NCBI RefSeq assembly: GCF_034355335.1
Contig: NZ_CP136422.1
Coordinates: 1,925,001-1,989,000, forward strand
DNA: 64,000 bases
Direction: 5' to 3'
From: Blautia coccoides
GTDB lineage: Bacteria; Bacillota; Clostridia; Lachnospirales; Lachnospiraceae
Of the stretch, positions 3,777-29,952 are shown in pieces; positions within the stretch are counted from its first letter, which is position 1; every line of letters starts with the position of its first letter. The notes below the pieces were generated by a model. That model searched no databases. It was not told the DNA's origin and saw only the letters and a program-made list of their open reading frames with translations. Position numbers and translations under genes: made by a program.

Positions 3777-3844
3777 TGAAAACAGTTAATAGAAATTTAA
3801 TACAACAATTTAATATTTACTGATTTTTCCCAGGAGGTGTGATT

Positions 3845-7183: not shown

Positions 7184-7191
7184 GAGGAAAA

Positions 7192-8700: not shown

Positions 8701-8720
8701 AGGCGAGGAGGGTTTAGCTG

Positions 8721-10334: not shown

Positions 10335-10346
10335 ATTCAGATTACC

Positions 10347-10368
10347 GGCCTGCGGACATCCGCAGGCC
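10347..10368 (+). other. Intercistronic stem-loop after the binding-protein gene
   Basis: GGCCTGCGGA-CA-TCCGCAGGCC, a perfect 10-bp stem with no U-tract. It lies between the binding protein and the first permease, a position typical of mRNA-stabilising hairpins that give excess binding protein. Confidence 0.7.
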
Positions 10369-10391
10369 ATACAGGTCAAGGAGGCGGTTGT

Positions 10392-11312: not shown

Positions 11313-11327
11313 AAGGGAGGGAAGAAT

Positions 11328-12155: not shown

Positions 12156-12228
12156 TGTCTGCCGTAAGAAAAAGATTCGGGCGGGTAGCTGTTCGGCAGG
12201 TATGCGCATTTATGTTGGGAGGATAAAT

Positions 12229-13065
12229 ATGGCGAAAAAAGTACAGGTTACATTGACGGGAAATGAAGGGAAGCGTCTGATCGCAAAAGCGGCAGTCAGG
12301 ATGCCGGAGATACAGGAGCGTCTGGAGAAGAATAAGATCCTTCTGTGCGGAGGCACTACCGTGTCCGCGCTCTCGGAGGAACTGGGATTTGGACCTCTGC
12401 GCATTTCCGGAAGAATTGATGCCAGCGGCACGAGGACTGCCCTGAAAAAGGCAAAGGCGCCTCATAATCTGCTGCTGGATCAGGGAAAAGGAGTGAATGT
12501 AGACGGCAGTATCCAGAAGGTTGCAGAATCACTCAATGACAAAGACCTGGTTGTTGTGGGAGCAAATGCCATTGATCCCATGGGAAGAGCGGCGTTGGCT
12601 TTTGCGGCACTGGGCGGAGGCAGCAGGGGATATGCCCTCCACGGCGCGTATATGCAGGGAGTGCCCATGCTGATCCTGGCAGGCATCAACAAATTGATCC
12701 CGGATCTGGGAGCAGCCCAGGCTCACAGCGGAAGAGCCGGTATTGATCTGTCCATGGGAGCTGCGATCGGATTGTATAATCTCTTCGGCCCTGTCATCAC
12801 AGAGCTGAAAGCGTTTGAGACCCTTTTCGGTGTGGAAGCGGTGGTGATAGCCGGAAGCGGATTCGGAACCGGTGACGGAACCAGGACGTTTGTTCTGCAC
12901 GGGGAAGAAGCAGCCATCCAGCAGGCATGGGAACTCTGCCTGGGATTAAAAGGTGCGGGCGTGTCCGCATGTGAGGACAGTCTCTTCACCTGTGTGGGGG
13001 GATGCAGACACTGCCAGCGTCACGTTGGCTGTTATTATAAAGAACTGGCTCAAGGCGAAGACTGA
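12229..13065 (+). CDS. Conserved protein of unknown function with Cys-rich tail
   Basis: A 278-residue cytoplasmic protein I do not recognise. The region LLCGGTTVSALSEELG (about 38-53) and the stretch KDLVVVGANAIDPMGRAA (about 105-122) resemble loops of the NagB/RpiA/MtnA-type Rossmann fold, which is only a suggestion. The C-terminus carries a cluster of Cys and His (CVGGCRHCQRHVGCYY) that could bind a metal. The start at 12229 has GGGAGGA six bases upstream; a longer in-frame start at 12112 would overlap the permease gene. It closes the ABC/lyase operon, so it may act on the lyase products or act as a sensor. Confidence 0.7.
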   Translation: MAKKVQVTLTGNEGKRLIAKAAVRMPEIQERLEKNKILLCGGTTVSALSEELGFGPLRISGRIDASGTRTALKKAKAPHNLLLDQGKGVNVDGSIQKVAESLNDKDLVVVGANAIDPMGRAALAFAALGGGSRGYALHGAYMQGVPMLILAGINKLIPDLGAAQAHSGRAGIDLSMGAAIGLYNLFGPVITELKAFETLFGVEAVVIAGSGFGTGDGTRTFVLHGEEAAIQQAWELCLGLKGAGVSACEDSLFTCVGGCRHCQRHVGCYYKELAQGED

Positions 13066-13142: not shown

Positions 13143-13166
13143 GTTTGAAAAACCTTCTTTTTAAAA

Positions 13167-13208
13167 CCCCGGGGGCGGCTTGCGGGTCATTTTTCCCTCT
13201 GCTATACT
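13167..13208 (+). promoter_or_regulatory. Promoter of the second ABC operon with shared CCCC-GGGG element
   Basis: TTGCGG (13180-13185), a 17-bp spacer and TATACT (13203-13208). Directly before the -35 lies CCCCGGGGGCGGC, which also precedes the two predicted small-RNA promoters at 19525 and 29796. The predicted leader is about 75 nt and contains the hairpin CCCGGAA...TTCCGGG (13221-13245). Confidence 0.75.
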
Positions 13209-13288: not shown

Positions 13289-14968
13289 ATGAAGAAAAAG
13301 ATTGCGGCAGTTCTCTGCTGTATGGCAATGACCGTATCCCTGCTTACAGGCTGCGGCAGCGGAGGGGATTCCGGTACGGATTCCGCAAAAGAGGCAAAAC
13401 AGAAGGGGACGGAAGCGTCAGCCAAGGCGGATGCTCCCAAAGAAGAGCAGGAGGGGACTTCTGCAAAGGATGAAGTTACCATTGGATTTTCAAATGACGC
13501 GGATAGCTGGGACCCCTGCACCGGGTTCGGCTACACCGGTTCGCCTCTCTATTCCTCCCTGGTGAAAGTGAACGGAGATGACAAACTGGAAAATGACCTG
13601 GCCACAGAGTACAGTGTGAGCGAAGATGCACTGACCTGGACGTTTAAAATCAGGGATGACGTAGTATTTTCAAACAAAGAGCCGCTGAAGGCCTCAGACG
13701 TGGCTTTTACATTCAACACCACGAAAGAAAAGGCAACTTACATGGATCTTACCATGCTGGAGGAATGTACGGCAAAGGATGACACAACTGTAGAATTCAA
13801 GCTGAACAAGCCGTGTGTGACCTTTATCTATACAGTAGCCCAGATCGGGATCGTACCGGAAAAGTCATACAGCGATAATTTCGGACTGTCTGCTGAGGAG
13901 ACCATTGGTTCCGGACCGTACAGGCTGACCCAGTGGGATAAAGGCCAGCAGTTTATCATGGAGGCCAATGAAAACTACTACGGGGAACAGCCGGCCATCA
14001 AAAAAGCAGTGTTCCTGGTACAGGAGGAGGATGCGCGGTTTGTATCTGCCAAAGCAGGGGATGTGGACATCGCACTTACCTCCGCGACCATTGCCACCAA
14101 TGATATAGACGGCATGCACGTGGAAGAGGTGGAATCTGTGGACAACAGAGGGATCACGCTTCCCACCGTGCCGGATGAAGGTAAAACAACAGAAGATGGT
14201 TACAAGATTGGGAATAACATTACCTCAGATGTGAATGTCAGGAAGGCTCTGTGCTATGGCATTGACAGGGAAAAGATCATAACAGAGGCTTTAAACGGCT
14301 TTGCAAAACCGGCCTATACAGAGTGCGACGGTATGCCCTGGTGGAATGAGGATACTGTTATAGATACAGATGTGGACTATGCAAAACAGCTTCTGGATGA
14401 AGCGGGATGGAAGGACGAAGACGGCGACGGGATCCGTGAGAAAGACGGGACAAAGCTGGCCTTTCATCTGATGTATTTTGCAGGGGATTCCATGCGCCAG
14501 GCAGTTGCCATGTCCGTGGCAAATCAGGCAAAAGAGAATATGGGATTTGATATCACAGTGGAAGGCGTCAGCGCGGATGACACGGTGAAGAGAATGTTTT
14601 CAGAACCCATGATCATGGGCTGGGGTTCCGATAGTCCCATGACCTCCTATATGCTGTACCACAGCAGTAATGCGGGCAAGACGGATTTCTACAATCCTGA
14701 ATTCTATACCAGCGAAAAGACAGATGAATATCTGGACAAGGCCATGAATTCCCTTACCATAGAGGATTCCTACCAGTGGTGGCAGAAGGCCCAGTGGGAC
14801 GGTGAGACAGGTACATCTATGAGAGGTGAGGCGCCCTGGGCGTTCTATGTTAATATGTCACATCTCTACTATGTAAAGGATGGGCTGGATATAGGAAAAC
14901 AGAGAATTCATGCGCACGGTGCGGCGTGGCCTCTGGTTGCCAACCTTGCAGAATGGACATGGAAATAA
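13289..14968 (+). CDS. Family 5 solute-binding lipoprotein (peptide/nickel type)
   Basis: A 559-residue secreted lipoprotein. The signal peptide ends in LLTGC with Cys22 as the lipid anchor, followed by a low-complexity linker (about 23-65) and the SBP_bac_5 fold (NDADSWDPCTGFGYTGSP, LATEYSVSEDALTWTFKIRDDVVF). The start at 13289 has AAAAGGAG upstream; a longer frame reaching into the previous gene is rejected because it contains the terminator and promoter. It heads a complete five-gene ABC operon. Ligand unknown: the family binds peptides, haem, nickel complexes and opine-like metallophores. Confidence 0.88.
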   Translation: MKKKIAAVLCCMAMTVSLLTGCGSGGDSGTDSAKEAKQKGTEASAKADAPKEEQEGTSAKDEVTIGFSNDADSWDPCTGFGYTGSPLYSSLVKVNGDDKLENDLATEYSVSEDALTWTFKIRDDVVFSNKEPLKASDVAFTFNTTKEKATYMDLTMLEECTAKDDTTVEFKLNKPCVTFIYTVAQIGIVPEKSYSDNFGLSAEETIGSGPYRLTQWDKGQQFIMEANENYYGEQPAIKKAVFLVQEEDARFVSAKAGDVDIALTSATIATNDIDGMHVEEVESVDNRGITLPTVPDEGKTTEDGYKIGNNITSDVNVRKALCYGIDREKIITEALNGFAKPAYTECDGMPWWNEDTVIDTDVDYAKQLLDEAGWKDEDGDGIREKDGTKLAFHLMYFAGDSMRQAVAMSVANQAKENMGFDITVEGVSADDTVKRMFSEPMIMGWGSDSPMTSYMLYHSSNAGKTDFYNPEFYTSEKTDEYLDKAMNSLTIEDSYQWWQKAQWDGETGTSMRGEAPWAFYVNMSHLYYVKDGLDIGKQRIHAHGAAWPLVANLAEWTWK

Positions 14969-14987
14969 AATAAGTCGGGAAATACTG

Positions 14988-15024
14988 CTCCGGGCGTAAA
15001 ATCTCTCAGATTTTACGTTCGGGG
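14988..15024 (+). other. Intercistronic stem-loop after the second binding-protein gene
   Basis: CGTAAAATCT-ctc-AGATTTTACG (14995-15017) extended by outer G-C and G-U pairs to about 17 bp. No U-tract follows. Same position as the hairpins after the two other binding-protein genes of this window. Confidence 0.7.
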
Positions 15025-15086
15025 CTGTTCGTGTTCCAGCGCGTATTTTACAAGATTTATAAGAGAAAATCGAATGGAGAAGCAGA

Positions 15087-16079
15087 ATGAAAAATAAATA
15101 TTATATGAAATTGACAGGGAAATATCTGCTCCGCATGGTGACACTTCTCATAGCAGTCAGCATCATCAGCTTTCTTCTGGTCAGTATGTCTCCGGTTGAC
15201 CCGGTGCAGCAGTATGTGGGAGCAGTGCCAAATGTGAGCATGGAACAGAGGGCAAAGATAGCGGAATACTGGGGGTTAAATGACCCGCCTGTGGAACGCT
15301 TCTTTGCATGGGCAAAGTCGGTGCTGCATGGAGACTTTGGAGTGTCTCTGATCTACCGAAGGCCGGTGCTGGATATCATCAAAGAAAAGTTTGTCACTTC
15401 TCTGGCTCTCATGGCGGCTGCCTGGCTGTTTTCGGGGATCATTGGATTTACCGTGGGCTGTGTGATGGGAGCATTTCACGGGAAAGGACCGGATAAAGTC
15501 CTGAAAAAGGTCTGTCTGATCATGTGTTCCATCCCGACTTTCTGGATCGGCATTGTGTTTCTTATGATTTTTTCCGTGAAGCTGGGATGGTTTCCCATGG
15601 GAATGAGCGTGCCGAAAGGCGTTCCCACGGACCAGGTGACCGTACTGCAGAGGATCCACCACCTGATCCTGCCGGCTCTGACCTTGAGTTTTCTGTCTTT
15701 TGCCAATGTGGCGCTTCACACAAGGGAAAAATTAGTGGATGTGCTGGAAAGTGAGTATGTTCTTTTTGCAAAAGCCAGAGGAGAATCCGGGTGGAGTATT
15801 TTAAAAAGGCATGGTCTGCGAAATATTATGCTGCCGGCTGTGACTATGCAGTTTGGTTCCTTCAGTGAATTGTTCGGAGGCTCTGTGCTGGCGGAAACGG
15901 TGTTTTCCTATCCGGGTTTAGGTGCCGCGGCTTCTGCGGCGGGTATGGGGTCTGACGTGCCCTTGCTTTTAGGGATCACCCTGTTTTCGGCACTCTTTGT
16001 CTTTGTGGGAAATATGCTGGCAAATATAATATACGGGGTTGTGGACCCGCAGATAAGGGAGGGATACATAAATGAGTGA
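15087..16079 (+). CDS. ABC transporter permease (NikB/DppB-like)
   Basis: A 330-residue membrane protein with about six helices and the family landmarks MSPVDPVQQYVG and the EAA loop ARGESGWSILKRHGLRNIMLPAVT. It pairs with the permease encoded by the next gene, which overlaps its 3' end by 8 bp. The ribosome-binding site is GGAGAAG before ATG at 15087. Confidence 0.87.
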   Translation: MKNKYYMKLTGKYLLRMVTLLIAVSIISFLLVSMSPVDPVQQYVGAVPNVSMEQRAKIAEYWGLNDPPVERFFAWAKSVLHGDFGVSLIYRRPVLDIIKEKFVTSLALMAAAWLFSGIIGFTVGCVMGAFHGKGPDKVLKKVCLIMCSIPTFWIGIVFLMIFSVKLGWFPMGMSVPKGVPTDQVTVLQRIHHLILPALTLSFLSFANVALHTREKLVDVLESEYVLFAKARGESGWSILKRHGLRNIMLPAVTMQFGSFSELFGGSVLAETVFSYPGLGAAASAAGMGSDVPLLLGITLFSALFVFVGNMLANIIYGVVDPQIREGYINE

Positions 16080-16938
16080 TATGACCGCAGTGGTGTCCGG
16101 TGTACGGGGAAGAAGGACGAGAGTGAACCGGAGGACCAAAACGATTATTTTTGCAGCGCTGATTTTCCTGGTGATCCTGGGGGTATATCTGTCAGGGGCT
16201 TTTTTAAGTGATGACCTTATCCAGGCTGATTTTTCCCAAAAAGCACTGAAACCCTCTTTAGAGCATCCCTTTGGAACGGATCTTCTGGGGCGGGATATGC
16301 TGGTGCGTACCATAAAAGGGCTGTCTGTCAGTATATCTGTGGGCATGATCGCGTCAAGTGTGAGTGCGGTGATCGCTTTGTTTGTAGGTGTGGCAGCAGC
16401 CACGGGACGTTCCTGGCTGGATCACTTTATCAATTGGCTGATCGATCTTGTTATGGGAATTCCCCATACAGTTCTGCTGATCCTCATTTCCTTTGCCTGT
16501 GGAAAGGGGCTGAAAGGCGTTCTGATCGGGGTGGCAGTCACCCACTGGACAGGACTTGCCCGTATTATAAGAAGTGAGGTTCTCCAGATACGCTCCCAGC
16601 AATATATAGGTGTGTCAAAGAGACTGGGACATTCAAGCTGGTGGATCACGGTCCACCATATTCTGCCTCATATGGTGCCCCAGTTTATCATAGGCCTGAT
16701 CCTTCTCTTTCCCCATGCCATCATGCATGAGTCGGGACTTACATTTTTAGGGTTCGGCCTCTCACCGGAGCAGCCTGCCATAGGGATTATTTTGTCGGAA
16801 TCCATGAAATATCTGTCATCGGGCATGTGGTGGCTTGCGTTTTTCCCGGGTCTAATGCTTGTGATCATTGTGCTGCTCTTTGACCGTCTGGGAGAAAATA
16901 TGAAGAAAATATTAGATCCGTACAGCGCACATGAATAG
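16072..16938 (+). CDS. ABC transporter permease (NikC/DppC-like)
   Basis: The 288-residue second permease, with HPFGTDLLGRDMLVRTIKG near residue 64 and the EAA-type loop VSKRLGHSSWWITVHHILPHMVP. Its GTDLLGRD motif is typical of the DppC family. It overlaps the upstream permease by 8 bp, which indicates translational coupling. Confidence 0.87.
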   Translation: MSDMTAVVSGVRGRRTRVNRRTKTIIFAALIFLVILGVYLSGAFLSDDLIQADFSQKALKPSLEHPFGTDLLGRDMLVRTIKGLSVSISVGMIASSVSAVIALFVGVAAATGRSWLDHFINWLIDLVMGIPHTVLLILISFACGKGLKGVLIGVAVTHWTGLARIIRSEVLQIRSQQYIGVSKRLGHSSWWITVHHILPHMVPQFIIGLILLFPHAIMHESGLTFLGFGLSPEQPAIGIILSESMKYLSSGMWWLAFFPGLMLVIIVLLFDRLGENMKKILDPYSAHE

Positions 16939-16947
16939 GAGTAAAAC

Positions 16948-17892
16948 ATGAAGAGAGAAAAAATAGAGAGAGAACCGATCCTGAAGGTGGAGGACTTATC
17001 CGTAGCGTTCCATATGTATGACAGGGGACTGGAGCAGTATGACCTGAAGGTAATATCTAACTTGAGCCTGGATGTGAAACCGGGGGAGATTGTAGCCATC
17101 GCCGGCTCCAGCGGTTCCGGAAAAAGCCTTCTGGCACATGCCGTTATGGGAATCCTGCCGGAGAACGCAGCGGTTACGGGAAAGGTCATATACAGGGGAG
17201 AGTGTCTTGACCAGAAGAAGAAGGAGGCACTCAGAGGTACGAAGATTGCTCTGGTGCCCCAGTCTGTAGCCTATCTGGATCCCCTTATGAGAGTGGGAAA
17301 ACAGGTGACAGGCAGTGACAGCGGTAAAGACAGGAAAAGATCCCAGAAAGAGATTTTCAAGAGATTTCATCTGGATGAAAAGGTAGAGAGATATTATCCC
17401 TTCCAGATATCCGGGGGAATGGCAAGGAGAGTCCTGGTGTCAACGGCTGTTATCAGCAACGCCTCCCTGATCATAGCGGACGAGCCTACACCCGGGCTGG
17501 ATCTGGAGATGGCACTGGAGGCACTGAAGATATTCCGTGAGCTGGCAGATGAGGGGAAGGCCGTGGTGCTCATCACTCACGACATTGATCTGGCCTTTAA
17601 TATTGCGGACAGGATTGCCGTGTTTTATGCGGGTACCACAGTAGAGATGGCAAAGGCTGAGGACTTCAGGAGAGGGATGCAGGAACTGCGTCATCCCTAT
17701 TCCAAGGCGCTCTGGCAGGCCCTGCCCCAGAATGGATTTCAGCCGATCCCCGGATTTCAGCCCTATGCCAAATATCTGCCAAAAGGCTGTCTCTTTTCTC
17801 CCAGGTGTCCCCACAGAACAGAAGAATGTGAAAAAGATATCCCCATGAGAGAGATCAGGGGAGGATATGTGAGGTGTATACATGCGACTTGA
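16948..17892 (+). CDS. ABC transporter ATP-binding protein (NikD/DppD-like)
   Basis: A 314-residue ATPase with Walker A GSSGSGKS (about 52-59), signature ISGGMARRV, Walker B LIIADEPTPGLD and the C-terminal CLFSPRCPHRTEEC motif of the peptide/nickel group. It overlaps the next ATPase by 11 bp. The operon order (binding protein, two permeases, two ATPases) matches nik/opp operons. Confidence 0.88.
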   Translation: MKREKIEREPILKVEDLSVAFHMYDRGLEQYDLKVISNLSLDVKPGEIVAIAGSSGSGKSLLAHAVMGILPENAAVTGKVIYRGECLDQKKKEALRGTKIALVPQSVAYLDPLMRVGKQVTGSDSGKDRKRSQKEIFKRFHLDEKVERYYPFQISGGMARRVLVSTAVISNASLIIADEPTPGLDLEMALEALKIFRELADEGKAVVLITHDIDLAFNIADRIAVFYAGTTVEMAKAEDFRRGMQELRHPYSKALWQALPQNGFQPIPGFQPYAKYLPKGCLFSPRCPHRTEECEKDIPMREIRGGYVRCIHAT

Positions 17893-18544
17893 AGCGAAAA
17901 ATTTAGGATTCCGCTATACAAATGGGCCGTGGATACTGAAGAATGTAAACTTTTCCATAGAAGAAGGAGAACGCGTGGGCCTGGTTGGACCAAGCGGTTA
18001 CGGCAAAAGCACTCTGGTAAAGCTTCTGGGAGGTTATCTGGAACCCTGTGAGGGGGAAATCCTGTTGGATGGAAAGCCTATGGAGAAGGAGGGAATCTGT
18101 CCGGTCCAGCTCATTTACCAACACCCGGAGAAGGCTATCAATCCGCGATGGAAGATGAAGAAAGTTCTGGAGGAGTCAGGCATGTTCCGGGAGGAGGTGC
18201 TGTGTGCACTGGGAATTGAGAAGGAGTGGCTGGAGCGGTATCCTCGGGAACTATCCGGCGGAGAACTGCAGCGGTTCTGTGTGGCGCGCTCTCTGTTTGA
18301 CGGAACCCATTTTCTGCTGGCGGACGAGATGAGCACCATGCTGGATGTGATCACCCAGGCACAGATATGGAATCTCATGCTCCATGAGGTGGAAAAGAGA
18401 AAAATAGGGCTGCTGGCAGTCACACACAACATGGCTCTGGCAGAACAGGTGTGTACCAGGAACATAAATCTGGCGGAGGTGAATCATATAAAATCTACAG
18501 AGGAAAGCAGGTGTAAAAATGGATGTGAATATGGTACTGTTTGA
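17882..18544 (+). CDS. ABC transporter ATP-binding protein (NikE-like, short form)
   Basis: A 220-residue ATPase with Walker A GPSGYGKST, signature LSGGELQRFCVAR and Walker B FLLADEMSTMLD. The usual DEP is DEM, as in NikE-like proteins. It lacks the C-terminal extension of OppF, so it is about 100 residues shorter than the DppF homologue in the first operon. This again resembles nickel or metallophore importers more than peptide importers. Confidence 0.86.
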   Translation: MRLEAKNLGFRYTNGPWILKNVNFSIEEGERVGLVGPSGYGKSTLVKLLGGYLEPCEGEILLDGKPMEKEGICPVQLIYQHPEKAINPRWKMKKVLEESGMFREEVLCALGIEKEWLERYPRELSGGELQRFCVARSLFDGTHFLLADEMSTMLDVITQAQIWNLMLHEVEKRKIGLLAVTHNMALAEQVCTRNINLAEVNHIKSTEESRCKNGCEYGTV

Positions 18545-19106
18545 TGATTTTGAGGCCATGGATGTATTTGGGCCGGCAGAGATACTGGGGAAACTGCAGA
18601 AGTATTTCCACATCCGTTATCTCTCTGTGTCCGGGGATGTGATAAACAGTGTACAGGGAGCCAAAATCTGGACAGATTTCCTGATCCCCGAGGAAATAGA
18701 GGGAATCCTGCTGATCCCCGGGGGAAAGGGAGCAAGGCGGCTGCTCTGGCAGGATGAGCGCACTTTGAACCTGGTGAAAAGAGCCGCAGAGAATGCGGAT
18801 ACCTGTATGATGGTGGGCAATGGTTCCGCGATCCTGGCACAGACAGGGCTTCTGTATAGGCGGAAGCTGGCAGACTGTCCTCTTGACAAGAACTGGAACA
18901 GGATGTTCACGGCAGGGATCGAGAGGATAGAAGGGGCCAGAGTGGCGGCTGACGGAAAATATTATTCCTGCAGCAGTACGGCTGCAGGCCTTGATATGAC
19001 ACTCTGGATGGTGGCAGATCAAATTGATATTGACGTGGCGGCAGAGGCTGCCCGGCAGATGGGATATGCCTGGGATCCGGCCGGAGGGGAAGAGATCTAT
19101 TGCTGA
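18519..19106 (+). CDS. DJ-1/PfpI-like protein without the catalytic Cys
   Basis: A 195-residue single-domain protein of the DJ-1/PfpI (class I amidotransferase-like) fold: DDFEAMDVFGPAEIL at the N-terminus, LIPGGKGARRLL in the middle, and the nucleophile-elbow region MMVGNGSAILAQTGLL. In active members this elbow reads VCTG; here Cys is replaced by Gly, so it is unlikely to be a Cys-dependent enzyme and may instead bind a ligand or regulate. The gene overlaps the ATPase gene by 26 bp and so belongs to the ABC operon. Confidence 0.78.
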   Translation: MDVNMVLFDDFEAMDVFGPAEILGKLQKYFHIRYLSVSGDVINSVQGAKIWTDFLIPEEIEGILLIPGGKGARRLLWQDERTLNLVKRAAENADTCMMVGNGSAILAQTGLLYRRKLADCPLDKNWNRMFTAGIERIEGARVAADGKYYSCSSTAAGLDMTLWMVADQIDIDVAAEAARQMGYAWDPAGGEEIYC

Positions 19107-19139
19107 AAAAGGCGGGCAAAGTGAGAAAGGATCTGTGCG

Positions 19140-19424
19140 ATGAGAGAGGATAAAAAAGATACAGGGACAAAGTATGACAAGAGCATGGTCAACCGTCTTG
19201 CCAGGGCTTCCGGCCATCTGAAGTCCATACGAGGTATGGTGGAACAGGGCCGTGACTGCAGCGAAGTCCTGATCCAGCTTGCCGCTGTGCGCTCAGCTGT
19301 CAATGGCGCGGGAAAGGAAGTCCTGAAGCAGTACATGGACGAATGTATTGAGGAAGCATTGGAAAAGGGGGACGAAAAGAGCCTGGAGCGGCTGAACAAG
19401 GCCCTTGATTCTTTCCTGAAATAG
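19140..19424 (+). CDS. CsoR-superfamily regulator, CstR-like (two Cys, no His)
   Basis: A 94-residue all-helical DUF156 repressor. Copper- or nickel-sensing members use a Cys-His-Cys or Cys-His-His set. Here the first Cys is kept (GRDC), the His position is Tyr (KQYMDEC) and a second Cys follows 29 residues after the first. A Cys pair 29 residues apart with no His is the pattern of the persulfide sensor CstR. It may sense reactive sulfur species or another thiol-active signal instead of free copper. It is the last gene of the second ABC operon, with AAAGGAT eight bases before the ATG. Its target is unknown. Confidence 0.85.
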   Translation: MREDKKDTGTKYDKSMVNRLARASGHLKSIRGMVEQGRDCSEVLIQLAAVRSAVNGAGKEVLKQYMDECIEEALEKGDEKSLERLNKALDSFLK

Positions 19425-19524
19425 AATTCCCGGAGAGAGACGCCAAGGAGAGAACCCCGGGATCGGGAAATCGGGTGTGAAAAAACTGCCGGAAGGGAAG
19501 GCGAAAGCTCTTTTTTATTTTTAA

Positions 19525-19566
19525 CCCAGGGGGCGGCTTGCGGGAAGCAATCAGGTGTTATATGAT
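19525..19566 (+). promoter_or_regulatory. Promoter of predicted small RNA 1
   Basis: TTGCGG (19538-19543), a 17-bp spacer and TATGAT (19561-19566), preceded by CCCAGGGGGCGGC abutting the -35. The 20-bp stretch from CCC to the -35 differs at only one position from the promoter at 13167. Confidence 0.75.
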
Positions 19567-19572
19567 GATATC

Positions 19573-19730
19573 ACGGTTAATCTTCCTCCAAAAGTTGACC
19601 GGAAAATTTACAGTATTGGCTTTTGTGCCGTTCCCTCCGCTTATTAACGGCACGTGAAGTCTGATTTGAATTCACAGACACTCCAAGTTCAAAAAGCCGC
19701 ATCCTAACGCCGGGATGCGGCTTTTTGCAT
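19573..19730 (+). ncRNA. Predicted small RNA 1 with two C-rich anti-SD loops
   Basis: No gene lies between a consensus promoter and a strong terminator, and the start of the IclR gene is further on. Hairpin A pairs GGTTAA (19575-19580) with TTGACC (19595-19600) and exposes TCTTCCTCC. Hairpin B is an 8-bp perfect stem GTGCCGTT/AACGGCAC (19625-19653) whose loop starts CCCTCCGC. Hairpin C pairs GTCTG with CAGAC (19659-19679) and exposes ATTTGAATTCA. The terminator hairpin follows. Exposed CCTCC can pair with ribosome-binding sites. A second RNA of the same design lies at 29844. Expression and function are inferred. Confidence 0.65.
19691..19726 (+). terminator. Terminator of small RNA 1
   Basis: AAAAAGCCGCATCC / GGATGCGGCTTTTT, a 14-bp perfect stem with a U-run on the 3' side. 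It is symmetrical enough to work on both strands. Confidence 0.85.
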
Positions 19731-19797
19731 GTCATTTTTAAACACGGTCTTGTAATATAAGGGCAGAAATGGTAATATTTTAGTAAGGTACAATATT

Positions 19798-19821
19798 GAA
19801 CAGAGTTCTTATATACGGAAC
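19798..19821. promoter_or_regulatory. IclR operator copy 1 (before the iclR gene)
   Basis: A 24-bp site: GAAC-N3-GTTCT, then GAAC after 8 bp. It stands just downstream of a TACAAT -10 box (19789-19794) and before the IclR gene. The same 24-bp pattern occurs twice before the gdh-like gene. Confidence 0.7.
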
Positions 19822-19858
19822 AAGCGGTGCCGCCATGAATATTAGGAGGGAAACCACT

Positions 19859-20617
19859 ATGAGTGAAGAGAAAGAGATCAAGGTAAAGAGCCTGCAGAAG
19901 GCTCTGGAGATTCTGGGATGTTTCGTGGAAAAACAACCTCTGGGTGTAACGGAGATCAGTGAAAAGCTGGGATTATACAAGAGCAACGTGCATAATATTT
20001 TAATGACCTTTAAGGCCATGGACTATCTGGAGCAGGATCCGGAGACCGGCAAGTTCAGGCTGGGAACAGCTGTGTTCACCCTGAGCCGTGCGCTGAGGGA
20101 GAGCCTTACCATTACCCGGGTGGTGCTTCCTTATATGCACCAGATCGCAAAAGAAGCGGGAGAGCTGGTATATCTGGCCATCCCACATGAAGACGAGGTA
20201 GTGTATCTGGAAGGTATCTATCCGGAAGGCCAGATGCTGCCCGGCAGATCAGTGACAGGAGAGCGCTCCAAAATGTACTGCACCAGTGTGGGGAAAGTCA
20301 TCCTTTCCCATATGCCTGATGAAGCGGTGGAGGAGATCCTGAGCCGTGAGAAAAAAGCCTTCACAGATTATACGATCACGGATAAGGAGAAGCTGTGGGA
20401 GGAAGTCAGGAACGCACGGAGGGACGGCTATGCAGTGGATAATATGGAGAACACCTTCGGCGTCAAATGTGTGGGGGTGCCTCTGTTGAATCATTTAGGA
20501 AAAGTGGAAGGCGCCATAAGTATCAGCACTCCGTCTCTGCGCATGGATGATGAGAAGCGTGACATTTTTGTACAGATCCTCAAGAGGTATGCCAATGAGA
20601 TTCAAAGACGTCTATAG
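19859..20617 (+). CDS. IclR-family transcriptional regulator
   Basis: A 252-residue regulator. The N-terminal winged helix spans about residues 5-65 (VKSLQKALEILGCF, GVTEISEKLGLYKSNVHNILMTF) and the C-terminal GAF-like effector domain fills the rest (TSVGKVILSHMP, GYAVDNMENTFGVKCVGVPL). The ATG at 19859 follows AGGAGGG (19844-19850) by eight bases and is preferred to an in-frame ATG 63 bp upstream that lies on the operator. One copy of its presumed 24-bp operator precedes it and two precede the gdh-like gene, so it probably controls itself and the amino-acid fermentation operon. The effector is not known; a 2-oxo acid or amino acid would fit. Confidence 0.88.
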   Translation: MSEEKEIKVKSLQKALEILGCFVEKQPLGVTEISEKLGLYKSNVHNILMTFKAMDYLEQDPETGKFRLGTAVFTLSRALRESLTITRVVLPYMHQIAKEAGELVYLAIPHEDEVVYLEGIYPEGQMLPGRSVTGERSKMYCTSVGKVILSHMPDEAVEEILSREKKAFTDYTITDKEKLWEEVRNARRDGYAVDNMENTFGVKCVGVPLLNHLGKVEGAISISTPSLRMDDEKRDIFVQILKRYANEIQRRL

Positions 20618-20860: not shown

Positions 20861-22033
20861 ATGGCAAACAAACCGTATTTAGTAGTGGAATGGAACGACA
20901 CAGAGACAGATGCAAAGGGATGGATGTGCGCATACAACTTCGTTAATCATTATTGCGGAGGCGGAACAAGAATGCATCCGACGGTTACAAAAGAGGAGGT
21001 TATCCGTCTTGCAACGACTATGGGGTACAAATATAAGGCATGTGAATCCCTCACAACAGGCGGATGCAAAGCGGGGATCGCATATGACTATAAAGCACCG
21101 GATGCCCTGGACGTTCTGAGGCGTTTCCTGACTGCTACCGCACCGGTGATCAATGCAGGTGTTTCCATCGGCGGAGATTTAGGTGTGGATTACTCCGACG
21201 TTTTAAGGATCTTAGATGACCTGGGAATCGGTATTCCCCAGACAAAGGCCATGAAGGAAGATCCTGATATCCATCAGGGTATCGTAAATCATGACAGAGC
21301 AGAAAAAGAACTGACCTACGACGGTTTCAAAATGTATGATATGATCACCGGCTACGGCGTTGCGGCGGCAGCCGATGAAGCTTGGAAGATGAAGGGCGGC
21401 AAAGAAGGCGCGTCTGTTGTTATCCAGGGATTCGGATGTGTAGGCGCAAGCTGTGTAAACTCCCTGAACAATATGGGCTACAAGGTTGTGGGCATCGCTG
21501 ATGTAAACGGATTGGTTTACTGCAAGGACGGCCTGGATATTCCCAAGCTGGTAGCTACCAGACTTCCAAAAGGTGAGATGAACAAGGAAGCTTTTGAAGA
21601 TAATTATGAGATCTATCCGAACAGCCAGTGGCTGGAAAAAGAATGTGATATCCTCATTCCCGCAGCTCTGGAAGATGTGATCAATAAAGACAATGCTGAC
21701 AAGATCAAAGCATCCCTGTTAGTGGAGGCAGCCAATATCCCGACCACACCGGAAGCAGACGAGATCCTCCGTAAAAACGGTGTTGATGTAGCCGTTGACT
21801 TTATTTCCAATCTGGGCGGCATCCGTATCTATGAAGCGGTTATCTTCCGCCTTGTAAAGATCGAAGATATGAGTGATGAGGATGCGGCAGCAGCTATTGT
21901 GAAAGACACAGTAGACTTGATCCGCAAACAGACACGCCGGGTATTTGAAGAGTCCAAAAAGACAGGTGAATTCACCCGTGACGTAGCCAGAAGGCTGTTC
22001 ACACCGGACAAATCCGACACTCCGGATATGTAA
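20861..22033 (+). CDS. Glu/Leu/Phe/Val dehydrogenase-family enzyme
   Basis: A 390-residue NAD(P)-dependent amino-acid dehydrogenase. Residues 1-145 form the substrate domain, with TTGGCKAGIAYD at about 65-77 carrying the catalytic Lys. The second half is the nucleotide-binding domain with VIQGFGCVGASC (GxGxxG-like) near residue 188. It would deaminate an amino acid to its 2-oxo acid. The substrate motif TTGGCKAG differs from the common GGGKGG or GGAKGG, so the amino acid cannot be named. It is the first gene of an operon with a 2-oxoacid:ferredoxin oxidoreductase and an ADP-forming acyl-CoA synthetase, which would take the 2-oxo acid onward. Regulation by the adjacent IclR protein is likely. 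Confidence 0.87.
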   Translation: MANKPYLVVEWNDTETDAKGWMCAYNFVNHYCGGGTRMHPTVTKEEVIRLATTMGYKYKACESLTTGGCKAGIAYDYKAPDALDVLRRFLTATAPVINAGVSIGGDLGVDYSDVLRILDDLGIGIPQTKAMKEDPDIHQGIVNHDRAEKELTYDGFKMYDMITGYGVAAAADEAWKMKGGKEGASVVIQGFGCVGASCVNSLNNMGYKVVGIADVNGLVYCKDGLDIPKLVATRLPKGEMNKEAFEDNYEIYPNSQWLEKECDILIPAALEDVINKDNADKIKASLLVEAANIPTTPEADEILRKNGVDVAVDFISNLGGIRIYEAVIFRLVKIEDMSDEDAAAAIVKDTVDLIRKQTRRVFEESKKTGEFTRDVARRLFTPDKSDTPDM

Positions 22034-22056
22034 TCCGTTATTCTGCTGGATAGGGT

Positions 22057-22079
22057 GGGGATGCGAAAAAAGCATCCCC
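22057..22079 (+). other. Intercistronic stem-loop after the dehydrogenase gene
   Basis: GGGGATGC-gaaaaaa-GCATCCCC, an 8-bp perfect stem without U-tract, ending 23 bp before the MFS start codon. Probably limits or separates expression of the two genes. Confidence 0.6.
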
Positions 22080-22102
22080 ATTCCATGTATATGGAGGTTT
22101 TT

Positions 22103-23353
22103 ATGAATTCTAAAGTGAGAAAATACCTTACGGTCATAACACTTGGCCTGGCAGGAGGTTCCATCTATTTTCTGCCCTACGTGAAATACATTTTTTATGA
22201 CGCACAGCTTGCGGCCATGCATATGAGCAACACCCAGTCCGGCCTGCTGCTCACCATGTACACGGTGGGAAATATGATCCTCTACATACCGGGCGGTATC
22301 ATTGCTGACAAAGTATCCCCGAAAAAAGCACTGATGATCTCCCTTCTGAGTACATCGGCACTTGCCTATTTATATGCCTTTACCATGAACTTTAAGATCG
22401 CCATGTTCATCTGGATGGGACTTTCCTTCAGCACGGCTTTTGTGTTCTGGTCCGCGCTTATGAAAGCTGTCCGTATTATCGGAACAGAGGAAGAACAGGG
22501 ATTCATGTATGGCCTTTACTATGCCTGCAACGGAATCACGGCGGCCCTGACCAACACACTGGCCCTGAATATTTACAAGACAGCCGGCGGAGATATGGAA
22601 CAGGGATTCTTCCGCGCAGTTTTAGCCGGCGGTTCTGTGGCGATCCTTGCAGCGGTTCTGCTGTTCTTCCTTATGAAAGACAGTGACAAACAGGAAGAAA
22701 AAGCCGGCGGCGGGGAACCGAAATTCAACATGGGTGATGTGGGAAAACTGCTGAAAAATCCGGTGGTATGGATCGTTTCCTTTACTATCTTCTGCGGATA
22801 CGGATTTTATACCAGCATCTCCTATTTCAATCCTTATCTGACAGAAGTGATAGGTGTATCCCCGGAAAGCTCCGGATTTATCTCCATTGTCCGTAACTAT
22901 CTGCTTCTGCTGCTGGCTCCTGTGGGAGGCATCATTGCAGATAAAGTATTTAAGTCCACATGTAAATGGCTCTCCACGGCATTTATCATACTGGCAGCTC
23001 TGTTCGGAGCGGTTCTTATCCTGCCCTCCGGCATCAGCCCCATGGCAGCCAGCCTGTATACCCTGATCCCGGGAGCATTTGCCATGATGATGTACGGAGT
23101 TGTGTTCTCCACAGTCAGTGAAGCGGGAATCCCCAGAGTGATGACAGGAACCGTGATCGGAATCGCGTCTATTATCGGCTATCTGCCGGATTCCATCTAC
23201 TCTGTGCTCTTCGGAAAGTGGCTGGATTCTTTTGGCGGCACAGGATACAATTTTATCTTTGGTTTCCTTGCAGTCTCAGGACTGGTGGGCGCCACACTTG
23301 CAATGTTGATCTACAGACACGGTAAGAAAGCAAAACAGGGAAATGCGGTCTGA
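22103..23353 (+). CDS. MFS transporter
   Basis: A 416-residue major facilitator with about twelve membrane helices and the loop motif GGIIADKVSPKKAL between helices 2 and 3. A second copy of this motif pattern (GGIIADKVFKSTCKW) starts the second half. The start at 22103 follows GGAGG by seven bases; an upstream in-frame ATG lies in the hairpin. Placed between the dehydrogenase and the oxidoreductase genes, it probably moves the amino acid or its acid product. Direction and substrate are unknown. Confidence 0.85.
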   Translation: MNSKVRKYLTVITLGLAGGSIYFLPYVKYIFYDAQLAAMHMSNTQSGLLLTMYTVGNMILYIPGGIIADKVSPKKALMISLLSTSALAYLYAFTMNFKIAMFIWMGLSFSTAFVFWSALMKAVRIIGTEEEQGFMYGLYYACNGITAALTNTLALNIYKTAGGDMEQGFFRAVLAGGSVAILAAVLLFFLMKDSDKQEEKAGGGEPKFNMGDVGKLLKNPVVWIVSFTIFCGYGFYTSISYFNPYLTEVIGVSPESSGFISIVRNYLLLLLAPVGGIIADKVFKSTCKWLSTAFIILAALFGAVLILPSGISPMAASLYTLIPGAFAMMMYGVVFSTVSEAGIPRVMTGTVIGIASIIGYLPDSIYSVLFGKWLDSFGGTGYNFIFGFLAVSGLVGATLAMLIYRHGKKAKQGNAV

Positions 23354-23433
23354 TGCGCGGCTCTTGACGGTACGCGAAAAAGACAAGGAAAGCAGTACCC
23401 CCTGTGAATGATCATAGAAAGGAAAATGAAATT

Positions 23434-23637
23434 ATGGGAAAAGAAAAAGTTTACACCAATCCCGTCCGCTGCAAAGGCTGCGGTTATTGTATGAATGCGT
23501 GTCCCCAGGAGGCCATCCGGGAATCCGGCCATGTGAATGCCAAGGGGTACAATACGGTTGAAGTGGATGCAGAAAAATGTGTGGTATGCGGCATGTGTTA
23601 CCGCGTATGCCCGGACTATGTATTTGAAATACGATGA
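23434..23637 (+). CDS. 2-oxoacid:ferredoxin oxidoreductase, delta (ferredoxin) subunit
   Basis: A 67-residue ferredoxin-like subunit with two [4Fe-4S] motifs, CKGCGYCMNACP and CVVCGMCYRVCP. It hands electrons from the catalytic subunits to ferredoxin. AGAAAGG stands about ten bases before the ATG at 23434; the in-frame ATG at 23404 has no such site. It is the first of four subunit genes in delta-alpha-beta-gamma order. Confidence 0.9.
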   Translation: MGKEKVYTNPVRCKGCGYCMNACPQEAIRESGHVNAKGYNTVEVDAEKCVVCGMCYRVCPDYVFEIR

Positions 23638-23649
23638 GGGAGGTTCATT

Positions 23650-24702
23650 ATGGGAAAAGTATTATTTAAAGGAAATGAGGCTCTGGCAGAGGCGGCACTG
23701 GCGGCCGGATGCCGCTTCTACAGCGGATATCCGATCACTCCGCAGACAGAGATCCTGGAATATCTCTCCTGGAGAATGGAAGATGTGGGCGGTGTATTTA
23801 TCCAGGCAGAGTCTGAACTGGCAGGCGTAAATATGGTATTGGGGGCATCCGCAGCAGGCGCAAGGGCGCTGACCACATCTGCAGGCCCCGGATTTTCTCT
23901 GAAACAGGAGGGGATTTCCTATCTGGTGGCAGCAGATCTTCCGGCTGTGATCGTGGATGTTATGCGTATCGGCACAGGCTTGGGAGATATTGCCCAGGGG
24001 CAGGGAGATTACTGGCAGCTCACAAGAGGCGGCGGTCACGGCGATTATCACACACTGGTACTGGCACCTGCGTCTGTCCAGGAAAATGCAGATCTGATGG
24101 TGGAAGCTTTTGATCTGGCGGAGAAATACCGTCATCCTGTTCTCATTGCCTCCGACGCGGCTATCGGGCAGATGATCGAAGCTGTGGAAATCCCCGAATT
24201 CAGGGAACACGACATCGACAAATTTGACTGGAGTATCAAGGGCTGTGAAAAAGGCTGTGAGCAGCGTAAGATCCAGAATGTTTATTACACCCATCCGGAT
24301 TATGAGAATTACCTGAGAGAAAAATACGATGACATGGAGCGGGACGAACAGCGCTTTGAGAATATCCAGGTGGAAGACGCAGATCTGGTACTTGTGGCTT
24401 ATGGGATCAGTTCAAGGGTATGCCGTGAGACAGTTGAGCTTGCAAGGGAAGAGGGCCTGAAACTGGGGCTTATCCGTCCCATTACCCTGTGGCCGTTCCC
24501 GGTAAAAGCCTTTGAGGAGGCAAAGAATGTAAAAGCCTTCCTCACAGTGGAGATGAATATTTTAGGTCAGATGACAGACGACGTGCGCCTGGCTACCGGC
24601 GGAAAATATCCGGTTGACCATTTTGGTTCTATTTTCGAGATTCCGGAATCTGACGGAATCATTGCTAAAGCAAAAGAAATGCTGAAAAAGGAGGGAGTAT
24701 AA
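23650..24702 (+). CDS. 2-oxoacid:ferredoxin oxidoreductase, alpha subunit
   Basis: The 350-residue subunit with the pyrimidine-type transketolase domain (SGYPITPQTEILEYL near residue 25, GPGFSLKQEGISYL near residue 83) and the C-terminal domain II. With the beta subunit it binds thiamine diphosphate and oxidises a 2-oxo acid plus CoA to acyl-CoA and CO2, reducing ferredoxin. It resembles the VorB/KorA group. Specificity (branched-chain 2-oxo acids or 2-oxoglutarate) cannot be read from sequence. Confidence 0.9.
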   Translation: MGKVLFKGNEALAEAALAAGCRFYSGYPITPQTEILEYLSWRMEDVGGVFIQAESELAGVNMVLGASAAGARALTTSAGPGFSLKQEGISYLVAADLPAVIVDVMRIGTGLGDIAQGQGDYWQLTRGGGHGDYHTLVLAPASVQENADLMVEAFDLAEKYRHPVLIASDAAIGQMIEAVEIPEFREHDIDKFDWSIKGCEKGCEQRKIQNVYYTHPDYENYLREKYDDMERDEQRFENIQVEDADLVLVAYGISSRVCRETVELAREEGLKLGLIRPITLWPFPVKAFEEAKNVKAFLTVEMNILGQMTDDVRLATGGKYPVDHFGSIFEIPESDGIIAKAKEMLKKEGV

Positions 24703-24703
24703 T

Positions 24704-25441
24704 ATGAGACTGGTAGCTCCTGAAACCGTAACATTTACGCAAAGCGGCTTCTGTCCCGGATGCGGACACGGCCTGGCAGTCCGTCTGATCGCTGAAGTAA
24801 TGGAAGAGATGGGCTTAAGTGAAAAACTTCTGGCTGTGGTAGATGTGGCCTGCGGTTCTTTAAATATTGATTCCTGGAGATTTGACACAGTTATGGCAGC
24901 TCACGGCCGTCCCGTGGCCACAGCGGTAGGCATCAAGAAAGTACGCCCGGATAACCCGGTGCTTGCCTATATCGGTGACGGCGCAGCGTACTCCATCGGC
25001 ATGGCGGAGACGATGCACACTGCACTGAGAAACGACAATGTGGTGACTGTAGTCATCAACAACAGCTTATACGGCATGACCGGCGGGCAATGCGCACCCA
25101 CATCTCTTCCGGGCCAGATCACCACTTCCACACCGAGAGGAAAAGATCCCGAAAAAATGGGAATGCCTTTCAGAGTTGAGCAGGCATTTACAGGCTTTGA
25201 CATTGCCTACCTGGCAAGAGGGACCATGGCAGATGCCAAGGGGATGATCCAGTGTAAAAAATACATCAAAAAAGCCTTTGAAAAACATATGAAGGGCCAG
25301 GGATTCTGTCTGGTTGAACTGCTCTCCCCGTGTCCCACAAACCTGAACATGACTCCTGTAAAGAGCATGGAGCACCTGAAAAATGAGATGGAAAAATACT
25401 TCCCTCTGGGTGAATTTAAAGACAAAAAGGAGGAGGAATAG
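24704..25441 (+). CDS. 2-oxoacid:ferredoxin oxidoreductase, beta subunit
   Basis: The 245-residue thiamine-diphosphate subunit, with FCPGCGHG near residue 16 and the GDG...NN cofactor motif (YIGDGAAYSIG to VVINNSLYGMTGG, about 89-128). It starts one base after the alpha stop, so the two are coupled. Confidence 0.9.
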   Translation: MRLVAPETVTFTQSGFCPGCGHGLAVRLIAEVMEEMGLSEKLLAVVDVACGSLNIDSWRFDTVMAAHGRPVATAVGIKKVRPDNPVLAYIGDGAAYSIGMAETMHTALRNDNVVTVVINNSLYGMTGGQCAPTSLPGQITTSTPRGKDPEKMGMPFRVEQAFTGFDIAYLARGTMADAKGMIQCKKYIKKAFEKHMKGQGFCLVELLSPCPTNLNMTPVKSMEHLKNEMEKYFPLGEFKDKKEEE

Positions 25442-25443
25442 AC

Positions 25444-25983
25444 ATGGCAAAAGAAATTATTTGTGCCGGATTCGGCGGACAGGGAGTGCTGACAGCCGGA
25501 ATGCTGCTCATCAATGCCGGCATGGAACAGGACAAAAATGTGTTATTCTATCCCTCCTACGGTTCGGAGATGCGGGGCGGAACTGCCAATTGTACGGTAA
25601 AGATCAGCGATAAGCTGATCGCCAGTCCGGTATCCAAGCACCCGGATATTCTGTTCACCATGAACACTCCGGCTATTGATAAATTCGAGGAGCGTCTGAA
25701 ACCCGGAGGGCTTCTGCTGGTGAACTCCTCCATTGTACCGGAGGACAGAACCTACAGGGAAGATATCACGGTAGTAAAGATTCCCGCCACAGACATAGCC
25801 GCGGAAGTGAAAAATCCTAAGGGTGCCAACCTGGTCATGCTGGGAGCACTGGCTGCCCACAGTGATTTGTTTACGATCGAATATATGGAAACAGCCATTG
25901 TCTCCTTTTTTGAAAAAAAGGGAAAAGGCAAATTCAATGAAAAGAATGTAGCCTGCTATCGCCGTGGGGTGGAAGGTAAATAA
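25444..25983 (+). CDS. 2-oxoacid:ferredoxin oxidoreductase, gamma subunit
   Basis: The 179-residue gamma subunit. It begins with the typical ICAGFGGQGVLTAGMLL and has PSYGSEMRGGTANC near residue 40. It completes the four-subunit enzyme. The gene starts two bases after the beta stop. Confidence 0.9.
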   Translation: MAKEIICAGFGGQGVLTAGMLLINAGMEQDKNVLFYPSYGSEMRGGTANCTVKISDKLIASPVSKHPDILFTMNTPAIDKFEERLKPGGLLLVNSSIVPEDRTYREDITVVKIPATDIAAEVKNPKGANLVMLGALAAHSDLFTIEYMETAIVSFFEKKGKGKFNEKNVACYRRGVEGK

Positions 25984-26000
25984 TAAAGGGGTTTGAGCAG

Positions 26001-26022
26001 GAGGGCGGAATTGGCCGCCCTC
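26001..26022 (+). other. Intercistronic stem-loop before the acyl-CoA synthetase
   Basis: GAGGGCGG-aattgg-CCGCCCTC, an 8-bp perfect GC-rich stem with no U-tract. The ribosome-binding site AGGAGG follows it. Confidence 0.6.
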
Positions 26023-26041
26023 TCACAGGAGGTAAAAAACT

Positions 26042-29778: not shown

Positions 29779-29795
29779 AATTTTTTCAAAATTAT

Positions 29796-29837
29796 CCCCT
29801 GGGGTGGCTTGTAAAACGGGTGGTGGTTAGCTATGAT
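29796..29837 (+). promoter_or_regulatory. Promoter of predicted small RNA 2
   Basis: TTGTAA (29809-29814), a 17-bp spacer and TATGAT (29832-29837). Directly before the -35 lies CCCCTGGGGTGGC, the third copy of the element seen at 13167 and 19525. Confidence 0.72.
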
Positions 29838-29843
29838 ATAGAC

Positions 29844-29952
29844 ATAGCCGCATCCTCCGCAAACTGCGGCTCCAAATGGATTTGAATTCACGCATGACAT
29901 ACAAAGGAGGCTGTATCCGCTTTGGCGGGGCAGCCTCCTTTGTATGTCCGTT
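29844..29952 (+). ncRNA. Predicted small RNA 2 with exposed CCTCCGC loop
   Basis: About 109 nt between a consensus promoter and a strong terminator, in a gap without genes. The 5' hairpin GCCGCA/TGCGGC (29847-29852 and 29865-29870) exposes TCCTCCGC; an alternative tighter pairing CCGCA/TGCGG is possible. The 13-mer GATTTGAATTCAC (29879-29891) is identical to one in small RNA 1, again just before the terminator. The arrangement of promoter element, C-rich loop, 13-mer and terminator is shared by the two. Function by pairing with ribosome-binding sites is inferred. Confidence 0.65.
29896..29948 (+). terminator. 18-bp hairpin ending small RNA 2
   Basis: GACATACAAAGGAGGCTG pairs perfectly over 18 bp with CAGCCTCCTTTGTATGTC, with a small inner hairpin CCGC-tttg-GCGG. 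Only a short T-run (CCGTTTTGG) follows, so release may be incomplete. The 3' arm carries CCTCCTTT, the anti-Shine-Dalgarno sequence of 16S rRNA. Being symmetrical, it may also end the convergent minus-strand transcript. Confidence 0.7.

Follow-up and report, generated by a model that had tools for sequence, protein, structure and literature searches.

Predicted small RNAs associated with a nickel-type import operon and a CsoR/RcnR-like operator in Blautia coccoides

Organization of the locus

The window, i.e. the whole stretch of 64,000 nt of Blautia coccoides that was analysed (GCF_034355335.1, NZ_CP136422.1, 1,925,001-1,989,000, forward strand), carries a nickel-type ABC import operon whose last gene encodes a CsoR/RcnR-family protein, hereafter repressor A, and directly precedes the gene of a predicted small RNA, RNA1 (Table 1). 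A second predicted RNA gene, RNA2, is found with a BCCT transporter gene upstream and a convergent gene downstream. The best solved match of the import SBP is the nickel-binding YntA (5.5e-100), its score against NikA being 167 bits, under the curated cutoff of 393. A second, different nickel-type ABC operon is present in another genome of the genus (G005), directly before an extra copy of RNA1; it scored 333 bits for Opp2B (cutoff 350), and its SBP scored 399 bits for Opp5A_nikA (cutoff 600) and has a nickel-binding protein as best solved match (3.1e-72). The pattern search retrieved no matching operator before this second operon.

Table 1. Features of the regulon in the window (positions from the first letter of the window)
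Feature	Position	Strand	Basis or remark
Operator and promoter (TTGCGG, 17, TATACT) before the nickel-type ABC operon, same as for the RNAs	13164..13208	+	pattern search
SBP_bac_5 lipoprotein, YntA/NikA-like	13289..14968	+	domain and solved-structure matches
Two permeases and two ATPases, nickel/peptide ABC type	15087..18544	+	domain matches
Candidate RNA1 target, ribosome-binding site of the second permease gene	16053..16064	+	pairing, suggestive only
DJ-1/PfpI-family protein	18519..19106	+	domain match
CsoR/RcnR-family repressor A (Cys40, Tyr65, Cys69)	19140..19424	+	PF02583; last operon gene, directly before RNA1
CsoR/RcnR-like operator of RNA1 (AACCCAGGGGGCGGC)	19523..19537	+	sequence; abuts the -35
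RNA1 promoter (TTGCGG, 17-nt spacer, TATGAT)	19538..19566	+	sequence
RNA1, predicted sRNA of ~155 nt	19573..19730	+	intergenic; fold, conservation
RNA1 hairpin 1 (TCTTCCTCC)	19574..19601	+	only in four RNA1-type copies
RNA1 hairpin 2	19625..19653	+	CCTCCGC in loop at 19634-19640
RNA1 motif 2 (GATTTGAATTCAC)	19663..19675	+	conserved
RNA1 intrinsic terminator	19690..19727	+	16 pairs counted
CsoR/RcnR-like operator of RNA2 (TATCCCCTGGGGTGGC)	29793..29808	+	sequence
RNA2 promoter (TTGTAA, 17-nt spacer, TATGAT)	29809..29837	+	sequence
RNA2, predicted sRNA of ~105 nt	29843..29947	+	fold, CCTCCGC loop, motif 2, terminator
RNA2 hairpin	29846-29871	+	CCTCCGC at 29854-29860
RNA2 motif 2 (GATTTGAATTCAC)	29879-29891	+	as in RNA1
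RNA2 terminator	29897-29947	+	differs from the RNA1 terminator

Sequence and fold of the two RNAs

The intergenic folded unit that an earlier note on this DNA had described at the place of RNA1 was confirmed, with a fold of -53.2 kcal/mol and a z of -5.6, none of 200 shuffles being as good. Two C-rich loops had been claimed for it. Hairpin 2 does expose CCCTCCGC in its loop, where the CCTCCGC letters are unpaired with a probability of 0.98-1.0; hairpin 1 exists as well, but in the minimum-energy fold the CUU of its TCTTCCTCC is paired with AAG and the open loop is reduced to CCUCCAA. A third claimed hairpin, exposing ATTTGAATTCA, was not upheld, being absent from the minimum-energy structure, and its short stem is incompletely kept in the other three RNA1-type copies, in which the loop sequence is kept. 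The intrinsic terminator is present, with 16 pairs counted where 14 bp had been announced. Nothing resembling a terminator was detected in the interval from the repressor gene to RNA1 (19425-19520), so read-through from the operon into RNA1 is possible.

The second RNA, announced 10 kb away and of the same build, exists but is built otherwise, with a single C-rich hairpin, a different terminator and no hairpin 1; it has the CCTCCGC loop, motif 2 and the promoter in common with RNA1. In the arms of its terminator a sequence of ribosome-site type, AAAGGAGG, faces the complementary CCTCCTTT. We did not retain a coding role, as the longest ORFs starting in the twelve RNAs of the family presented below vary from 9 to 61 codons.

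A match to a known RNA family would have removed the novelty of RNA1; none was obtained with Rfam 15 over the whole window at gathering score, and with E up to 10 the RNA1 and RNA2 regions gave 14 and 7 matches, respectively, all below gathering scores.

Distribution and conservation of the RNA family

Twelve copies of the RNA were found in eight of the 20 genomes of the genus, whose closest named protein relatives are Blautia (94% and 67% identity for the two closest named matches). They display a CCUCCGC hairpin loop, a UYGAAUYC-like motif 2 (exact in nine copies and one letter off in the other three) and a terminator-like hairpin with stems of 7-21 pairs. Five of them (in G003, G007, G008, G010 and G013) constitute a type named RX, distinct from RNA1 and RNA2 by its stem and motif 2; RNA1 and the RX copies are located directly behind the repressor gene. 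BLAST against 61 genomes retrieved, besides RNA1 itself, one copy in G009 (91% identity) and two in G005 (87% and 84%); a further short match, in G034, was rejected since it reads as coding sequence.

The loop letters are identical in the twelve copies, which were partly chosen by those letters, and at least six of the seven are unpaired with P >0.75 in 11 of 12 copies (one letter is paired in G007 and G010), the extra G005 copy having five of seven unpaired and two paired. The anti-Shine-Dalgarno loops of the earlier interpretation are retained for CCUCCGC, which is general in the family; only the four RNA1-type copies have the TCTTCCTCC loop. The exposed anti-Shine-Dalgarno-like loop is conserved and stays constant amid changing stems. 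The genes downstream of the RNA copies differ between genomes which, together with the convergent gene after RNA2, fits an action in trans.

Alignment, by which the earlier note could have been refuted, showed the loop kept across copies and the RNA more conserved than its flanks. Among G000, G005 and G009, identical columns (gaps counted) amount to 130/165 in the RNA and 39/51 in the promoter, against 34/121 and 82/301 in the flanks. Helices of the four RNA1-type copies have 97.4% of their cells paired, slid controls giving 30-45%, and two of their 29 pairs are changed on both sides, a moderate signal equalled in 42 of 500 shuffles. When four of the five RX copies were aligned with the three RNA2 copies, 92.6% of the helix cells were paired, slid controls giving 18-47%; this alignment was fitted to the structure, which favours such figures. 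Its covariation score was reached by 1 of 500 shuffles, and its three pairs changed on both sides are no more than in shuffles (285/500).

Two covariance models were built. The first, from the five RX copies, was searched in 191 kb; it found no RNA1 copy and ranked the RNA2 copies 6, 7 and 11 of 22 (E 0.41-0.92), weak matches of which two were nevertheless the best outside the training set. The second was built from RX and RNA2 copies with L167 (G013) left out, because a false match in the same locus would have entered the alignment. With stricter filters, seven of 397 genomes of the family matched this model: its own genome and six weak matches. In the stretches that were read, none of these six showed the operator together with CCTCCGC at the matching place. 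The search of family genomes suggested by the earlier note was carried out in this form and brought no convincing copy outside its own genome in this set. The pattern CCTCCGCN{14,40}ATTTGAATTCA retrieved at least 120 stretches with matches all over the tree, and none of the 16 inspected, mostly from Clostridia and other Firmicutes, was RNA-like. In the other 12 genus genomes the RNA was not found by the operator patterns or the RNA1/RNA2 pattern, an absence which rests on patterns and from which a copy lacking that operator would escape.

A common operator and promoter element

A consensus promoter had been announced for RNA1. This was not upheld because a scan of 19000-20300 for sites with 9/12 matches gave none; the -35 matches TTGACA at 3/6 positions and the -10 matches TATAAT at 5/6. 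Judging from its sequence, it is a predicted promoter with a weak -35 bearing an operator-like element. The element common to both RNAs and to the import operon is composed of a C run, a G run, GGCTTG, 20 nt and the -10, and the spacer between -35 and -10 is 17 in all 12 RNAs. Its strict core, CCNNGGGGYGGCTTG, occurs three times in the 6.1-Mb genome, before RNA1, RNA2 and the operon 13289-19424, all inside the window. The same three sites are found in the same order in G009, and also in G005, where the extra RNA1 copy has a fourth; G008 and G013 contain a single site each and the remaining 15 of the 20 genomes none, the reversed control giving a single site in the 20 genomes.

A relaxed core combined with the -10 retrieved 25 sites in 12 of the 20 genus genomes, against one with the reversed control. 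By reading downstream, 12 of them head a CCTCCGC RNA and six an import operon. Three others precede a periplasmic binding lipoprotein (L256 in G003, L236 in G008 and L240 in G013), which would represent a third regulon member in these three genomes, all having repressor A; the best solved match of the G008 lipoprotein is 2etv, named iron(III) ABC-transport binding protein. The last four (L234, L242, L244 and L245), looser sites occurring once each in four of the 12 genomes without repressor A, stand before a permease of nickel type (above the cutoff for Opp2B), two SAM methyltransferases related to each other (one of them scanned) and a deacetylase-like protein with a fused methyltransferase domain. 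The occurrence of a similar element in these four genomes suggests that another regulator, perhaps the paralogue described below, may use the site. In G007 and G010, both with repressor A, the element at the promoter of the import operon has diverged to CCCCCAGGGTAGCTTACC, which the patterns missed and which was seen by reading only.

Two repressors of the CsoR/RcnR family

Repressor A has a PF02583 domain (6e-26, above gathering score). Orthologues with at least 64% identity are present in eight of the 20 genus genomes, and in all eight the DNA behind the gene holds the operator, the -10 and a CCTCCGC RNA. A search of 397 genomes of the family (mostly one per genus) with E up to 1e-31 retrieved repressor A in its own genome only. 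The RNA family therefore seems narrow, with no convincing RNA or repressor A beyond its own genome in this set.

Cys40 and Cys69 are kept in the eight proteins, Tyr65 takes the place of the metal-binding histidine and there is no N-terminal histidine. Repressor A does not display the His-Cys-His-Cys/His ligand set of InrS/RcnR and is devoid of both InrS nickel-site histidines, and may thus not sense nickel. By score its nearest solved relatives are 6ahx and InrS; 7mq1, which we take to be the structure of CstR, is among the nearest solved sequences and likewise has no histidine there in the printed alignment. Repressor A has the two-cysteine pattern of CstR, and no sulfurtransferase was found among the operon proteins scanned. 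It resembles a thiol sensor or an aberrant member of the family, whereas the gene content of the regulon resembles a nickel type.

A paralogue, B, is present in all 20 genomes, with Cys-His-Cys and a His-rich start in the 10 aligned copies. Its gene adjoins that of a P-loop ATPase (Mrp-like, by eye), and no operator of the kind described here was seen in the paralogue B loci read. Paralogue B, or A and B both, may nonetheless bind the operator.

PMC10318464 describes the operators of most CsoR-family proteins as pseudo-palindromes containing at least four G or C in a row, and the CsoR site of M. tuberculosis quoted there has a CCCCC...GGGGTGG look, as does the element described here. CsoR-family repressors typically release exporters as metal rises (PMC10318464, PMC7055735, both in part), so that an importer under such a repressor fits badly, but InrS, another member, acts at a nickel-import operon too in the available part of PMC7055735.

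Candidate targets

As GGAGG is present in 29 of the 56 predicted starts of the window and the loop can cover any of them, the fit of the loop is alone no proof of a target. Target prediction, proposed earlier, covered the window and the fetched stretches of other genomes and leaves the pairing short of proof. Loop 2 of RNA1 ranked the 5' coding region of the import SBP first of 58 genes here (-22.6 kcal/mol), first of 19 in G005 and fifth of 18 in G009 (-16.6). Pairing of RNA1 with the start of the second permease gene reaches about -20 kcal/mol in three close, near-identical genomes, and 15, 5 and 5 of 500 flank shuffles were as good, among 53 tests in which two unrelated pairs were as low, RNA2 with DJ-1 in G009 (15) and RX with the SBP in G013 (5). 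For the RX loops, the second ATPase start ranked first in four of five genomes and second in G010 (8-16 genes per stretch), with 62-211 of 500 shuffles as good. Counts of TGCGGAGG-N-ATG rose with genome size and, by eye, did not separate genomes with the RNA from those without. Feedback on the importer and nickel sparing are, at this stage, two leading ideas for the role of the RNAs.

A proposed regulon and its alternatives

The reading which we favour, with a probability of about 0.55, is that RNA1 and RNA2 are trans-acting sRNAs built into a nickel-import regulon under a CsoR/RcnR-family repressor. It is based on the sequences, their conservation, the changing stems at constant loop, the shared promoter element and the gene order, from which we infer transcription, repressor binding, the nickel signal, the direction of control, the pairing with ribosome-binding sites and the targets. 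The repressor, most likely A, would bind the G/C-tract operator that overlies the -35 in the promoters of the nickel ABC operon, RNA1 and RNA2, and once repression is lifted the importer and the sRNAs would be made together. The sRNAs would then present a single-stranded CCUCCGC loop, to which RNA1 would add the CCUCC of hairpin 1, and the loop would pair with GGAGG-type ribosome-binding sites of chosen mRNAs and lower their translation. Possible targets are the importer, on which the RNAs would act as a brake, or nickel-using and other metal genes, in a nickel-sparing role as that of RyhB for iron. A tentative extension would make this the nickel counterpart of Fur-RyhB in Firmicutes, in which a CsoR-family repressor without metal histidines controls an importer together with two or three sRNAs sparing nickel or braking the importer.

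Other explanations have to be weighed against it. The RNAs could belong to a thiol or persulfide stress regulon, in which a CstR-like repressor A would use Cys40 and Cys69 to detect electrophiles or reactive sulfur, the importer answering the loss of metal as sulfide. Excerpts of PMC9405070 describe CstR as a di-thiol repressor sensing reactive sulfur, and the cysteines and tyrosine of the eight aligned proteins, as well as 7mq1 with its similar lack of histidine, agree with this possibility. We nevertheless consider it unlikely, as the operon proteins that were scanned included neither rhodanese nor sulfurtransferase nor persulfide enzyme, the transporters linked to the RNAs appear to be of a nickel or metal type, and 6ahx and InrS score as the closest solved relatives. 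The position of RNA1 and RX directly behind the repressor gene, with no terminator-like site before RNA1, would also suit RNAs that are parts of the operons beside them, as cis-acting leaders or as 3' tails; however, each of the 12 copies has its own promoter and terminator-like hairpin, RNA2 follows a BCCT transporter gene, the extra G005 copy follows another operon, the downstream genes differ and the gene after RNA2 is convergent, all of which makes independent sRNAs preferable and this option quite improbable. Finally, the C-rich loop could be a protein-binding site, the RNA acting as a sponge, instead of an antisense seed. Its seven letters, the same in 12/12 copies partly chosen by them, and the lack of a convincingly conserved target are compatible with such a role, which we hold as very improbable, for a seed fitting ribosome-binding sites would be constant too and the data suggest no binding protein.

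With regard to the earlier note, its observation is partly confirmed, the RNA gene being real and conserved, and its interpretation as a trans-acting regulatory RNA with anti-Shine-Dalgarno loops is partly supported; it had missed the operator and promoter common to both RNAs, the nickel-type import operon and its repressor gene.

Comparison with known regulatory RNAs

In RyhB-type systems, such as Fur-RyhB and, in Bacillus, the metal-sparing sRNA FsrA, an sRNA and metal-import genes are placed under one repressor and the RNA has a stretch pairing with ribosome sites. An operator common to metal-import genes is likewise present here as a shared sequence element; the present case differs by its metal, probably nickel, by a repressor of the CsoR/RcnR family and by the lack of an Rfam match. 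We read the locus as a new sRNA family that is putatively part of a nickel-type import regulon with a CsoR-like operator and is arranged like Fur-RyhB. The RNAs would work like a metal-regulon sRNA, yet by sequence they match no Rfam family.

Metal regulators associated with sRNAs include, in excerpts of a review (PMC9294342), Fur-RyhB, MntR-RsaC, Nur-s-SodF and NikR-NikS, and the word "CsoR" does not appear in this review. NikS of Helicobacter pylori (NikR) and s-SodF of Streptomyces coelicolor (Nur) are also nickel-regulon sRNAs (PMC9294342, in part), but from other phyla and under other regulators, s-SodF being in addition a 3' UTR product.

The streptococcal csRNAs, under CiaR, are similarly multi-copy sRNAs within the regulon of one transcription factor and have unpaired anti-Shine-Dalgarno stretches (PMC3091779, in part). 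The likeness to csRNAs put forward earlier holds for this mode of action only. They depend on a two-component activator and most have an anti-start CAU and a UCCUAAA-type nonamer. In the available part of PMC3091779 the conserved nonamer is given as [A/C]UCCUAAA[A/C]; its exact form is found in none of the 12 copies, and RNA1 has a partial csRNA-like AUCCUAAC inside a terminator arm. The pairing region of pneumococcal csRNAs lies between stem-loops, whereas it is here a hairpin loop.

Repressor A belongs by its PF02583 domain with CsoR, RcnR, InrS and CstR, and the G/C-tract pseudo-palindrome over the -35 is of their kind; the link to an importer and sRNAs and the replacement of the metal-site histidine by tyrosine set it apart. 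No sRNA under a CsoR-family regulator was found among the papers listed in literature searches, as judged by titles and abstract openings, and if the regulon proposed here is true it would be the first, as far as these searches show. Few nickel-linked sRNAs have been described, RNA control of nickel use being known in very few bacteria. Acetogens occur among Blautia, and as their carbon-fixing enzyme contains nickel, a rationing of this metal would affect the main route of carbon in common gut bacteria. With so few operator sites, three promoters and twelve RNA copies, the idea lends itself to direct tests. Small-RNA reads from stool assigned to Blautia wexlerae have been reported (PMC10138442, in part), which may or may not be related to this family.

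Neighbouring genes

The region between RNA1 and RNA2 (20861-28150) contains a glutamate dehydrogenase-like gene and a ferredoxin, and presumably also subunits of a 2-oxoacid:ferredoxin oxidoreductase and an ADP-forming acyl-CoA synthetase, which other parts of it resemble. Three genomes retain TGCGGAGG within the coding region of the dehydrogenase, perhaps for no other reason than the protein sequence encoded there. Beside the nickel operon, an ABC importer cluster (3839-13062) encodes a MmgE/PrpD protein (5801-7183) adjoining an argininosuccinate-lyase-type enzyme (7192-8700). Such pairs presumably degrade iminodisuccinate/EDDS-like chelators, and the cluster may therefore be devoted to the uptake and catabolism of a chelate or metallophore.
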